Assembly: GCF_027579695.1 (NCBI RefSeq)
Contig: NC_083590.1
Span: 14,767,656-14,831,655, forward strand
Length of the DNA stretch: 64,000 nucleotides
Direction: 5' to 3'
Source: Neoarius graeffei
Taxonomy: Eukaryota; Chordata; Actinopteri; Siluriformes; Ariidae
Shown here one piece after another: positions 37,755-60,560 of this stretch. Every line of letters begins with the position of its first letter. Position 1 is the stretch's first letter. Made by a program: the position numbers and the translations under genes. Below the pieces are notes generated by a model, which ran no database searches, had not been told where the DNA came from, and was given only the letters and a program-made list of their open reading frames with translations.

Positions 37755-38850
37755 CTGATTTATGTCCATTTAATATCCACACCTATCTTTCACCTGGAAA
37801 TGTAGAAACAGCATAAGGTACATAACTGGACCCTTTACACTCAGAAAAAGGAGGAGTCATGGCCTAAATCATTAGAAAAGCAGCATTGGGACCAAAAGGT
37901 CGCCGGGTCGATTCCCTAAACCAGCAGGAATGGCTGAAGTGCCCTTGAGCAGCAAGGCACCTAACCCCTAACTGCTCCGGGTGTGTTTATCGAGCATCTG
38001 ATAAATACCTCGAATGTAATCACTGTGTCTTTCAGCATGTAACGTATAAGGTACATAACTGGATGTTTTATATTCTCAGGAGGGGAAAAAAGGTAATAAA
38101 GTTATTTTTTTTCTGTCACTAGATAAGAGAAGAATCTTTTGTACAGAGTGGTAAATGGAACAGCTGTTCTTTCATCTGAAACAGATGTTGTGCACATGGT
38201 CCATAACTGGATGTTTTATTTTCTCAGAAGAAGAAAAAAAGAAGTACTAAATTCTACTTTCCCATATCACTTGAGTGGTTTCCCTCAACCAAAGGCACAT
38301 CTTTATTGTGTATCTTACACTGTTAGAAATACTTTAGGAGTCCATTTCTGTCCCCCTCGGGCTCATTATTGGACCTCAAGAGAACTATGTATACCTTTTT
38401 CAGGCTAAAAGGGTACTTTGATGTTCTCAGGCAGTATAAAAGGGAACAAATGAGTACCTTAGAGGATGCTGCCTCGATGACAGGCCAGTTATGCACTTTA
38501 TTTTCTGGAAAGGTGCATGGAGTGGATCTCACTTAATGTGCTCAAGGTACCAGAGTAGTACCAAACATTTTCGCATCACTATGTAATTAGATTAGTATTA
38601 AAAAAAAGGTAGAGAAGGTGGGCATGCTTGAAGTGAAAAAGTGTAGTACCTTTCTTATAAGCATGGTGTGTGCGTGGTATTTAACTAAAAAGGTGTGAAC
38701 AGGTAAACTAATTCCGCTTTCAAACTTCCCCACTGAATGAACGTTTCTTTTTAAAAACCCACTGAGGTCGTGATTTGTTGGAAATTTGCTGCTATTCGGC
38801 GTTTTCCAGCCCCCTACACTGCTCCGGTCCTCGCCTGTGCACTTATTGGA
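36606..38850. other. junb downstream flank with microsatellites
   Basis: Holds (CA)n at about 37,164-37,195, a (TATAA)n array at about 37,277-37,391, (TATC)n at about 37,673-37,754 and a SINE B copy (37,862-38,018). The stretch 38,100-38,600 contains several ggtactttt/aagtacc-type blocks of an unknown repeat. No gene recognised. Confidence 0.6.
37862..38018 (+). mobile_element. SINE family B, copy 3
   Basis: Plus orientation: catggcctaaatcattagaa, gggaccaaaaggtcgccggg, gattccctaaaccagcagga and the gagcagcaaggcacctaacc block. Confidence 0.7.
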
Positions 38851-38879
38851 GAGAAATGAAACCAAACAGCGAGTGGGCG

Positions 38880-39160
38880 GCGGCGGATTTTCGCGCAAAC
38901 ACTTCCCAGCTGTGACGTAGGAAGCACTAAAAATGCCCATATATGGACATGCTGGTTGACGTAGATAGGAAAGACCTTTAACGCCCAAATCAATAACGAG
39001 GCGAGTCCGAGATTTAGAAACAAAAACAGCATGAAAGGTGGAAAACCCCCCGCCGTGTTGGTCATGGAAAGGTCTCTGAACGGCTCAGGTGTCAAAAAAA
39101 ACAAAACACAAAAACAGTAAACAGAATGCTAATCGGTTACATAACAACCGGAAGTGCCTT
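38880..39160 (-). promoter_or_regulatory. Candidate junb downstream enhancer with SRE, CRE-like and ETS sites
   Basis: A compact site cluster lies 0.6-0.9 kb past the junb stop: tttcgcgc (E2F-like, 38,889), tgacgtag (CRE/AP-1-like, 38,913-38,920), aggaag (ETS core, 38,919), a perfect palindromic CArG box ccatatatgg (38,937-38,946), and tgacgtag again (38,957-38,964). Further on are gttacataac (C/EBP or PAR-bZIP-like, 39,136-39,145) and accggaagtg (ETS consensus, 39,147-39,156). The stretch is less AT-rich than its flanks and free of recognised repeats. From memory, a serum- and cAMP-responsive enhancer 3' of mouse Junb has been reported, so a downstream SRE fits the gene. Confidence 0.6.
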
Positions 39161-39605
39161 TCAACTGGGTCAAGGTTCATAAACAAAACGCCAAGCTGAG
39201 AGCTTCCAGGGCTGAAGAGATAAGAGGAGATGAGATATGAGAAGTGAAAAAAAAGACCACCAAGAGGAACAAGAGAGAGATGTATATATTCCAATGTGTT
39301 CTTTTTACTTAAATAAAACAAATAAAAAATGACATTGTAAACATGACATAGTTAAAACATTAAGTCAGGATCAACCTGACTTGAAAAAACAAAACAAAAC
39401 AAATAATTTACACATTTAGAAAAAAAATGACAGTATCAGGTGACGTCATAGGCTACTAAACATACAAATCTCCCTTTGATCATGACATTATTGGCCTGGA
39501 GAAGGCTTTACTGGCCTGGTCACTCAGTCTTTCGAGCCCACATGGCTCTTGTGTTTCTCAGTCGCCTCAATCTAGTGAACGGTGTCCGGCAACCGTACCG
39601 TTTTG

Positions 39606-39611
39606 TTTATT
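39606..39611 (-). terminator. junb polyadenylation signal (candidate)
   Basis: AATAAA on the minus strand, about 145 bases after the stop codon. This would give a short 3' UTR; further AATAAA-like sites lie farther downstream. Unproven without transcripts. Confidence 0.45.
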
Positions 39612-39755: not shown

Positions 39756-40751
39756 TCAGAAAGCCTCCATCTTGCTGGTGAGCATGAGCTGGCAGCCGCT
39801 GCTGACGTGCCGCAGGACCTTCTGCTTGAGCTGCGCCACTTGCTCGCGCAGGAGCGACGCGGTGCTCGAGAGACCCGCGTTGTCCGACTTGAGCACCTTG
39901 ACGCGGTCCTCGAGACGCGCGATGCGCTCCAGTTTGCGCCGGCGGCACTTGGTGGCGGCGAGTCGGTTCCTCAGGCGCTTGCGCTCCGCCTTGATGCGCT
40001 CCTGGCTCTCCATGTCGATCGGAGAGACGGGCGGCGTGCCGTCGCTGCTGTGCATGTCCGGCACCGTCTGCGGCTCCTCTTTGAGAGGCACGAAGCGCTG
40101 CTGCTGCTGCTGCTGTTGTGCGGGATGGACGCCACCAGCCAGAGGGTTCTGGTACGCGTCTGCGTGCGCCGGAGGAGGCAGGTAGCTGATGGTGGCTGAC
40201 GGGTAGCTCGAGGTGGCTGTAGTGGACGAGACGAGGCTCGGGCAGTAAGGATTGAGCGTGGTGTAGACTGGAGCTTCTGGCTGCAGGGCGGAGCCGAACG
40301 CCGAGGGAGCCGCCACCGAGCACGTCGTCACCCCGCCCGCTCCGATCGACACGTTGGGCGGGGGCTGGTGCATCTTGTGCAGCTCGTCCAGCGCCTTCAC
40401 GAAGCCCTCCGCGAAGCCCTCCTGCTCGTCTGTGATGGAGCGGTGGCCGTAGAGATGATACTGACCCGGCGGTGTCGGGCTGGTCAGCACCCCGTTGCTG
40501 TTCTGGATGATCAGCCTCTCCAGCTCCGGAGAGGCCAGCTTCAGAGACCCGACGTCCGCCTGAGACGCGTGGTACACCGGGTCGGACTTGAGGCTGCGGT
40601 AGGGCTCGCTCAGGCTGCTCAGGCTCATGGGCTGCTGCTGATGCTGATGCTGCTTCTGGAGCTTGTAGTCGTGCAGCGCGGCGTCCGCGTGGCCGTAACC
40701 CAACAGAAAAGAGTCGTCATGGTAAAAAGGCTGCTCCATTTTTGTGGACAT
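39756..40751 (-). CDS. junb: Transcription factor JunB, intact single exon
   Basis: 331 codons without introns, as usual for jun genes. JUN proteins dimerise with FOS or each other to form AP-1, bind TGA(C/G)TCA in the nucleus and act as immediate-early regulators. The N-terminus [15 protein letters not shown] is JunB-type. A Jun transactivation segment follows at 69-130 ([41 protein letters not shown]). LKEEP (223-227) fits a SUMO-type site and [11 protein letters not shown] (238-248) is the conserved phosphorylated block. The basic region is 251-276 ([13 protein letters not shown], with redox-sensitive Cys269). The zipper has leucines at 280, 287, 294, 301 and 308 and His315. L/L/AT in the basic region distinguishes JunB from c-Jun (M/I/AS). 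Two Gln-rich runs (34-40 and 212-218) are lineage-specific. The start has the upstream flank expected of the family, and whether this is junba or junbb is undecided. Confidence 0.97.
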
Positions 40752-41300
40752 AAGAGGCGTGATGAAGAGTTGAGGCTTTGGGGCTTACCTTTACCTGAGT
40801 CAGTCAGGTGTGTGTGTGTGTGCGCTTCAATCAGAGCAGCACTGAGTCTTGGTTCAAAACACAACCCTAATATGAGTTCTGTCTTTTTTTTAAGCGCTGC
40901 TGCTTGTTCTTCTTCTTATTCTTCTTCTTTACAATGTCCAGTCTGAAAAGTCCCAGGATAAAAAGCAGCACAAGGTCGGTTCTCTCTTTAAAAAAAAAAA
41001 AAAGTCAAGATCTTTTCCAAATCTGTGCAAACACAAATGCAGAATAAAAATAACCAGCGCACAAAAATCCCCGTCAGTCAGTCAGTTTGTCTCCTGTGTG
41101 TTATTACAGCACTCTCTGGGTTCACATGGACTGGAGTCCCGGCCGCCACATTCGCTTTTATGCTGACAGCCGGCAGCCCGAGCTGAACGCAGCCCGCTGA
41201 TTGGTTGGAAGTCCAGCCCTGCCGACAGAACACGCCCGCTTTAATGACGCGACGCGACGTCATTGTCAGGAACTGCTGGTCTGTAAACAAGCCCCTGGGC
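40752..41300 (-). promoter_or_regulatory. junb 5' UTR and core promoter
   Basis: On the minus strand: a TATA-like gcataaaag (41,155-41,163), a CCAAT box (aaccaatcag, about 41,197-41,206) some 40 bases upstream of it, and a CRE-like tgacgtcg (41,255-41,262) about 50 bases farther. This order (CRE, CCAAT, TATA) is a textbook inducible promoter and puts transcription start near 41,125-41,130, giving a 5' UTR of about 375 bases. That start is inferred from spacing only. The stretch is CpG-rich. Confidence 0.65.
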
Positions 41301-41815: not shown

Positions 41816-41857
41816 ACCGGAAGCCTATACATTCCATATATGGGTATGGTGACGTTC
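41816..41857 (-). promoter_or_regulatory. Upstream SRE of junb: ETS + CArG + CRE-like composite
   Basis: accggaag (41,816-41,823), ten bases, a perfect palindromic CArG box ccatatatgg (41,834-41,843), six bases, then tgacgttc (41,850-41,857). ETS next to CArG is the layout bound by SRF with ternary complex factors in fos and egr genes. It lies about 0.7 kb upstream of the inferred junb transcription start. Confidence 0.6.
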
Positions 41858-51761: not shown

Positions 51762-53350
51762 CAGTGCCTTGCAAAAGTATTCATACCCCTTGAGCTTTTT
51801 CACATTTTTCCATCTTACAACCACAAAGTTTTTTATTGAGATTTTATGTGATAGACCAACACAGAGTAGCACATAATTGTGAAGTGAAACGAAAATGATA
51901 AATGGTCTTCACAATTTTAAACAAATAAAAATCTGAACAATGTGGTGTGCATTAGTATTCAGCCCCCTGTCCTCTGATACCTCTAAATACAATCCAGTGC
52001 AATCAATTGCCTTCAGAAGTCATCTAATTAGTTAATAGAGTCCTACTGTGTGTAATTTACTCTCAGCATAAATACACTTGTTCTGTGAAGGCCTCAGTGG
52101 TTTGTTAGAGAACACTGAAGAACAAACAGCATCATGAAGACCAAAGAACTCACCAGACAGGTCAGGGATAAAGTTCTGGAGAAGTTTAAAGCAGGGTTAG
52201 GTTATTAAAAAAATATCCCAAGCTCTGAACATCTCAAGAAGCACTGTTCAATCCATCATTCAAAAATGGAAAAAGTATGGCACAACCGCAAACCTACCAA
52301 GACATGGCCGTCCATCTAAACTGACAGAGCGAGCAAGGAGAGCACTGGTCAGAGAAGCAGCCAAGAGGCCCATGATCACTCTGGAGGAGCTGCAGAAATC
52401 CACAGCTCAGGTGGGAGAATCTGTGCACAGGACAACTATAAGTCGTACACTCCACAAATCTGGCCTTTTTGGAAGAGTGGCAAGAAGAAAGCCATTGTTG
52501 AAAGACAGGCATAAGAAGCCATGTAGGGGACACAGCAAACATGTGGAAGAAGGTGCTTTGGTCAGATAAGACCAAAGTTGAACTTTTTGGCCTAAATGCA
52601 AAGCGCTATGTGTGGTGGAAAACTAACACTGCTCATCACCCTGCACACACCATCCCCACTGTGAAACATGGTGGTGGCAGCATCATGCTATGGGGATGCT
52701 TTTCCTCAGCAGGGACAGGGAAGCTGGTCAGAGTTGATGGGAAGATGGATGGAGCGAAATACAGGGCAATCCTGGAAGAAAACCTGTTGGAGGCTGCAAA
52801 AGACTTGAGACTGGGAAGGAGATTCACCTTCCAGCAAGACAATGACCCTAAACATACAGCCAGAGCTACAATGGAATGGTTTAGATCAAAGAATATTCAT
52901 GTGTTAGAATGGCCCAGTCAAAGTCCAGACCTAAATCCCATTGAGCATCTGTGGCAAGACTTGAAAATTGCTGTTCACAGATGCTCTCCATCCAATCTGG
53001 CTGAGCTTGAGCTATTTTGCAAAGAAGAATGGGCAAAAATTTCAGTGTCTAGATGTGCAAAGCTGGTAGAGACATACCACAAAAGACTTGCAGCTGTAAT
53101 TGCAGCAAAAGGTGGCTCTACAAAGTATTGACACAGGGGGGCTGAATACTAATGCCCACCACATTGTTCAGATTTTTATTTGTTTAAAATTTTGAAGACC
53201 ATTTATCATTTTCGTTTCACTTCACAATTATGTGCTACTCTGTGTTGATCTATCACATAAAATCTCAATAAAAAAACTTTTAAGTTTGTGGTTGTAAGGT
53301 GGAAAAATGTGAAAAAGTTCAAGGGGGATGAATACTTTTGCAAGGCACTG
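51762..53350 (+). mobile_element. Tc1-like transposon, complete ends
   Basis: 1,589 bp with inverted ends cagtgccttgcaaaagtatt and TA flanks. It carries a transposase pseudogene (52,133-53,131). It is the best preserved DNA transposon in the window, so it probably was active more recently than its neighbours. Confidence 0.93.
52133..53131 (+). pseudogene. Tc1-like transposase, catalytic half open, N-terminal half frameshifted
   Basis: The frame starts MKTKELTRQVRDKVLEKFKA. An extra base near 52,204 shifts it, so the paired-type HTH is split. The middle (52,372-52,569, MITLEELQKSTAQVGESVHR onwards) is open, and a second shift with a small deletion occurs near 52,520. From 52,541 a 196-codon frame runs to the natural end (KGGSTKY). 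In that part the DDE motifs are visible: [10 protein letters not shown] (first Asp, with Lys where Glu is usual), [10 protein letters not shown] (second Asp) and [11 protein letters not shown] (Glu). The protein would cut and paste the element at TA sites. It cannot be made as one chain now. Confidence 0.9.
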
Positions 53351-59886: not shown

Positions 59887-60560
59887 ACTAGTGCATCTCA
59901 GAAAATTAGAATACCATGAAAAAGTTCTTTTTTTTCGTAATTTAATTCAAAAAGGTAAACTTTCATATATTCTATATTCATTACATGTAAAGTGAAATAT
60001 TTAAAGCCTTTTTTGTTTTAATTTTGATGATTATGGCTTATAGCTCATGAAAATCAGAAATCCAGTATCTCAAATTATTAGAATATTCCATAAGATCAAT
60101 CAAAAAAAGGATTTACAATACAGAAATGTCCAACTTCTGAAAAGTATATTCATTTATACACTCAATACTTGGTTGGGGCTCCTTTACCATGAATTACTGC
60201 ATCAATGCGGTGTGGCATGGAGGTGATCAGTCTGTGGCACTGCTGAGGTGTTATTGAAGCCCAGGTTGCTTTGATAGTGGCCTTCAGTGTATCTGTATTT
60301 TTGGGTCGGGTGTTTCTCATCTTCCTCTTGACAATACCCCATAGATTCTCTATGGGGTTCAGGTCAGGCAAGTTGGCTGGCCAATCAAATACAGTAATAT
60401 CATGGTCAGCAAACCATTTGGTAGTAGTTTTGGCACTGTGGGTAGGTGCTAAGTCCTGCTGGAAAAGGAAATCAGCATCTCCAAAAAGCTCGTCAGCAGA
60501 CATGAAGCATGAAGTGCTCTAAAATCTCCTGGTAGATGGCTGCATTGACTTCGGCCTTGA
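59887..60560 (-). mobile_element. Tc1-like element, truncated, with transposase C-terminus
   Basis: The left end tagtgcatctcagaaaatta is a known fish Tc1-type terminal sequence. On the minus strand 60,162-60,503 is an open 113-codon frame with FQQDLAPTHSAKTT (second Asp), LPDLNPIENLWG (Glu) and a KGAPTKY end. The N-terminal half and the other terminal repeat are missing, and the sequence abuts a SINE at 60,562. Confidence 0.82.

Follow-up and report, generated by a model that had tools for sequence, protein, structure and literature searches.

Does the junb gene of a fish carry, behind its coding sequence, a counterpart of the serum-responsive enhancer that lies downstream of the mouse gene? 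Mammals have supplied most of what is known about immediate-early enhancers, and the question is raised here by a compact group of predicted transcription-factor sites in 64 kb of Neoarius graeffei DNA (the whole stretch analysed, hereafter "the window"). An earlier note on this DNA had pointed to the mouse enhancer, which is described in print (PMC516031; PMC3799436). There, the serum response of mouse junB is attributed to a CArG box lying downstream of the gene (PMC516031, citing Perez-Albuerne 1993), and an enhancer of ~200 bp is situated ~200 bp beyond the polyadenylation site and holds four kB sites, of which three contribute (PMC3799436); enhancer and promoter are described there as joined by a stable, pre-formed short loop (PMC3799436, PMC2833204).

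The gene beside the fish block is a genuine junb. A single-exon open reading frame of 331 amino acids at 39756–40751 on the minus strand encodes a complete Jun protein by Pfam search (Jun, 1.7e-51; bZIP_1, 2.2e-17), and viral contigs (600 pattern-matching stretches) and prokaryote contigs (597) contained zero relatives of it. Because the reading frame is on the minus strand, the 3′ flank runs toward falling coordinates, and the block at 38880–39160 falls ~0.60–0.88 kb beyond the stop codon, much where the earlier note had put it. On the other side of the gene, the predicted core promoter (41157–41204, minus strand) consists of a CCAAT box at 41200–41204 and CATAAA at 41157–41162. In a second junb copy, on C18, CCAAT stands at −440 and TATAAA at −409 relative to the start codon; both copies carry CCAAT and a TATA-like box ~410–450 bp upstream of the start codon. 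A HOOK gene lies ~150 kb from the window's junb on the same contig (C23), and PMC3799436 gives HOOK2 as a close neighbour of mouse junb, ~15 kb off. More complete sets of HOOK-like exons lie at 14.96 and 15.75 Mb of C23, and further matches to such exons, several of them with stops, recur over 15.05–18.6 Mb—a pattern that suggests that parts of a hook gene have been duplicated more than once along this contig. Elsewhere in the window, reading frames of transposase type occupy 52201–53131 and 60162–60518, which we take, from their sequence, to be of a Tc1-like family.

The core of the block was described accurately from the outset. A palindromic CArG box, CCATATATGG, which is a predicted SRF site, occupies 38937–38946 and is flanked by two copies of TGACGTAG on the plus strand, a gene-proximal one (38957–38964) and a gene-distal one (38913–38920), all three being exact in the sequence. 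Both flanking sites are CRE/ATF-like, start within 28 bp of the CArG box (start to start) and are of the half-site type, the full palindrome being absent; we call the whole of 38911–38964 (minus strand) the CRE–CArG–CRE core. The C/EBP-like site proposed previously is also present, as TTATGTAA on the minus strand at 39137–39144, and fits the NFIL3/PAR-bZIP consensus. Two further sites had been overlooked, i.e., an NF-kB consensus site, GGGGTTTTCC, on the minus strand at 39040–39049, which is the sole kB-consensus match within 3.5 kb either side of junb (coding sequence left out), and an EGR/Sp1-type GC box, GAGTGGGCGG, on the plus strand at 38871–38880. Only part of the ETS claim survived. The strict site CCGGAAG at 39148–39154 (plus strand; CCGGAAGT extends to 39155) is the sole (A/C)CGGAA(G/A) match in 3.5 kb of junb 3′ flank, whereas the GGAA cores adjoining the CArG box (38920–38923 and 38968–38971) are weak, both lying within TAGGAA, a context that misfits the TCF consensus, (C/A)(C/A)GGA(A/T), as given in PMC516031. 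The observed/expected CpG ratio is 0.94 in 38801–39000 and 0.83 in 39001–39200, vs. 0.49 for the window as a whole.

Lone exact CArG boxes are common enough—the 64-kb window holds five, two of them CCATATATGG, together with three copies of TGACGTAG—but their combination is rare. Dinucleotide-shuffling the whole window 100 times never produced a CArG box flanked left and right by TGACGT at start-to-start distances of up to 40 bp. Among 3186 tiles of 300 bp, all six scanned motif classes came together in one (38861–39160, annotated here as a putative downstream enhancer), a figure that flatters the block because half of the classes (NF-kB, PAR-bZIP, and EGR) were chosen after it had been read; of the 100 shuffled controls, 95 reached at most two classes, five reached three, and none reached more. 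With TGACGT and CCGGAAG allowed up to 250 bp from a CArG box, the window has two such boxes, one downstream and one upstream of junb, vs. four in 200 shuffled windows; at limits of 40 or 150 bp an upstream cluster (41834) alone qualifies and the downstream block drops out, the same number of shuffled windows yielding zero boxes at 40 bp and two at 150 bp.

Nor is the block a repeat, in keeping with what had been claimed for it. The interval 38850–39200 has a single match, itself, in the species' own 2.34 Gb assembly, by a search that passes over very common words and whose sensitivity to repeats is bounded accordingly, and there are zero direct repeats in 38600–39300. On these two results, and within the sensitivity of that search, we reject a dispersed repeat or transposon as the origin of the block.

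A more telling comparison comes from within the same genome. A protein search identified six Jun-family places, among which the copy on C18 (locus L008) is nearest to the window's junb (68% identity). This copy has an NFI gene 0.5 Mb away, and in human NFIX lies near JUNB. Among the matches listed there was no HOOK gene on C18 and no NFI gene on C23, and neither tested neighbour stands beside both copies. We infer that the C23 and C18 copies are duplicates of one JUNB region that underwent complementary losses, with the teleost genome duplication as the most likely source. As for other members of the family, a 343-aa Jun-family gene on C29 (L011) has a HOOK gene ~0.25 Mb away, a Jun gene on C3 has one ~1.3 Mb away, and a diverged Jun-family gene of 273 aa is present on C1 (L012); L011 or L012 may be an additional vertebrate Jun paralogue.

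Behind the coding sequence of the C18 copy, the core is repeated in order and spacing (L008:5514–5565). Specifically, TGACGTCA stands at +504, CCAAAAAATGG at +522, and TACGTCA at +549, such that two ACGTCA motifs are 44 bp apart. This is exactly the spacing found in the window, their orientation relative to the gene is likewise the same, and they enclose a CArG box with one mismatch, which is degraded by one extra base (CC, seven A/T, GG). When the 1.5-kb C18 flank was dinucleotide-shuffled 100,000 times, an ACGTCA pair at 39–49 bp (a tolerance of ±5 bp that was the analyst's choice) arose 173 times and one at exactly 44 bp 15 times, a smaller run of 20,000 shuffles having given 26 pairs; the pair at 39–49 bp with a CArG box (≤1 mismatch) between its members arose in two of the 100,000. 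Across the window and five 9.9-kb Jun loci, read on both strands, ACGTCA pairs at 39–49 bp occur at two places only, one in each junb 3′ flank. Both flanks also carry GGGCGG after the second CRE, and both have a kB consensus site, but on opposite sides of the core.

Beyond these sites, little is shared. Aligned by plain methods, the two 3′ flanks share the stretch with the polyadenylation signal and otherwise low-complexity or weak matches only. Local alignment of a 120-bp core against the C18 3′ flank gave a score equalled by 8 of 300 shuffles and by 2 of 122 real 3-kb tiles; the 54-mer core, ungapped, has 27 identities in 54, a level that many unrelated places reach, and 33 in 53 once one compensated indel, chosen for best fit, is admitted. 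Since alignment of the flanks is unconvincing, what has been kept is the order and spacing of the sites and hardly the sequence. The upstream regions fail to align as well (1.3 kb upstream of both ATGs, no BLAST match at E 0.1), so that non-alignment is not peculiar to the downstream block. A model built from the sequence of the two cores alone spans 55 positions at 0.456 bits per position, which is not informative enough to search the genome with.

How, then, should the block be read? Were it transcribed as 3′ untranslated sequence of junb and acting as RNA, the mRNA would have to extend to the AATAAA at 38497–38502, and the gene strand indeed has no canonical AATAAA between 39606 and 38502. 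On the contrary, a further AATAAA is present at 39606–39611, and a probable variant polyadenylation signal, AGTAAA (39304–39309, minus strand), lies within ATTTAAGTAAAA, a stretch common to both junb 3′ flanks (~+366 from the stop in the C18 copy); if used, this signal would end the mRNA at ~39280 and leave the block ~100–400 bp beyond it. The features that recur between the two copies are, moreover, of the kind bound as DNA by proteins, and we find an RNA role for the block scarcely credible. That the block is a functionless cluster of short motifs, come together by chance in unique DNA beside a gene, seems to us only slightly less improbable, i.e., very unlikely. The unconvincing alignment of the two flanks and the post hoc choice of half of the motif classes would both fit such a cluster, but the absence of CRE–CArG–CRE triplets from the 100 shuffled windows, the repetition of the arrangement in the second copy (at a frequency of two in 100,000 shuffles), and the elevated CpG ratio across the block all count against it.

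A more serious competitor accepts that the block is a working junb enhancer and gives it an origin separate from that of the mouse element, SRE and CRE sites having gathered independently in the two lineages. Binding sites turn over quickly, as is generally known, and the upstream cluster at 41817–41855, for which no counterpart was found upstream of the second copy, suggests that clusters of this kind can be gained or lost. Yet the fish block lies on the same side of the gene as the mouse enhancer, at a similar distance beyond the predicted end of the mRNA and with sites of the same kinds, and its core stands beside both fish junb copies; independent origin therefore strikes us as unlikely. 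The reading that we favor, and consider probable, is that 38861–39160 is a compact stimulus-responsive junb enhancer and the counterpart of the mouse one, with a core that predates the split of the fish copies. In proposing a fish counterpart, the earlier note was on firm ground as to place and kinds of site, which match the mouse, and the order and spacing of the core repeat at a second junb copy; that the block has been kept since the fish–mammal split is plausible. Because a worn version appears to persist beside the second copy, the block is probably an old control element. What is new here is the evidence, drawn from sequence comparison, suggesting that the core predates the fish junb duplication, and in the literature, at the level of titles and abstract openings, we found no downstream SRE described for a fish junb gene.

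If the block is such an enhancer, SRF would occupy the CArG box and CREB/ATF or AP-1 dimers the two flanking CREs, which together would take in growth-factor and cAMP/calcium signals. Inflammatory signals would enter through NF-kB on 39040–39049, and ETS and EGR factors would act at the neighbouring sites. As in the mouse reports, a short chromatin loop would then bring the element to the junb promoter, ~2 kb away, where the signalled factors would either release polymerase or recruit it.

The gene's other flank may contribute as well. A second SRE-type cluster, at 41817–41855 on the plus strand and ~0.7 kb upstream of the predicted transcription start site, packs CCGGAAG, CCATATATGG, and TGACGT into 39 bp; its ETS site is of the strict type and 10 bp away from the CArG box, and, to judge by its motifs, the cluster could in some ways be called a more classical SRE than the downstream block. 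It has one match, itself, in its own genome, and the 4 kb upstream of the C18 junb contain no CArG box (≤1 mismatch) within 60 bp of TGACGT. These observations invite a broader conjecture, offered tentatively and with more doubt than confidence: that an immediate-early enhancer has stood behind junb throughout the vertebrates since before the fish–mammal split, with a fixed CRE–CArG–CRE geometry (44 bp, ~four helix turns) that has outlasted alignable sequence, and that in this fish it works together with the upstream SRE cluster, the promoter being held between SRF sites on either side. Apart from this conjecture, a fish element that matches the mouse one in place and parts, and that can be followed across a gene duplication by the order and spacing of its motifs though hardly by alignment, would show that such enhancers can be conserved by their grammar and overlooked by ordinary conservation scans. 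For fish researchers the block offers a 300-bp target, junba and junbb being described in PMC9922731 as genes that matter in fin regeneration.

Among known systems, the SREs in the promoters of c-fos and egr1 combine a CArG box with CRE and ETS sites close by, at immediate-early genes. The downstream block resembles them in having a CArG box with nearby CRE and ETS sites at a gene of this class; theirs, however, lie upstream in the promoter, and the window's closer analogue is the cluster at 41817–41855. Regeneration-response elements near zebrafish junba and junbb likewise represent candidate inducible control DNA around fish junb genes, but as described (PMC9922731) they are multi-copy, compared there with transposons, and based on E-box and AP-1 motifs, whereas the block has one match in its own genome; SRF and CArG are both absent from the main text of that report.

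The closest likeness is to the mouse junb "E" region (Perez-Albuerne et al., 1993, PNAS 90:11960). The sequence of its CArG box was not found in the paper texts examined (including PMC5817314 and PMC3087454). The first 1.2 kb of the fish junb 3′ flank contain no TTCN3GAA STAT site. Judging by its title, a 1995 report by Brown is said to deal with an APRF/NF-kB site for IL-6 at junb, and Perez-Albuerne and colleagues reportedly also described, in 1993, a CRE in the mouse downstream enhancer. By the accessible accounts of the mouse element, the two differ in that the fish block has one strict kB site and the mouse four, and in that the fish block has a core of two CREs 44 bp apart and an NFIL3/PAR-type site, both unmentioned for mouse in the cited texts as available. 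They are alike, so far as those accounts extend, in lying behind the gene, in being compact, in combining a CArG box with an NF-kB site, in lying no more than a few hundred bp from where the mRNA ends (the predicted end in the fish), and in sharing a contig with a gene of the HOOK family.
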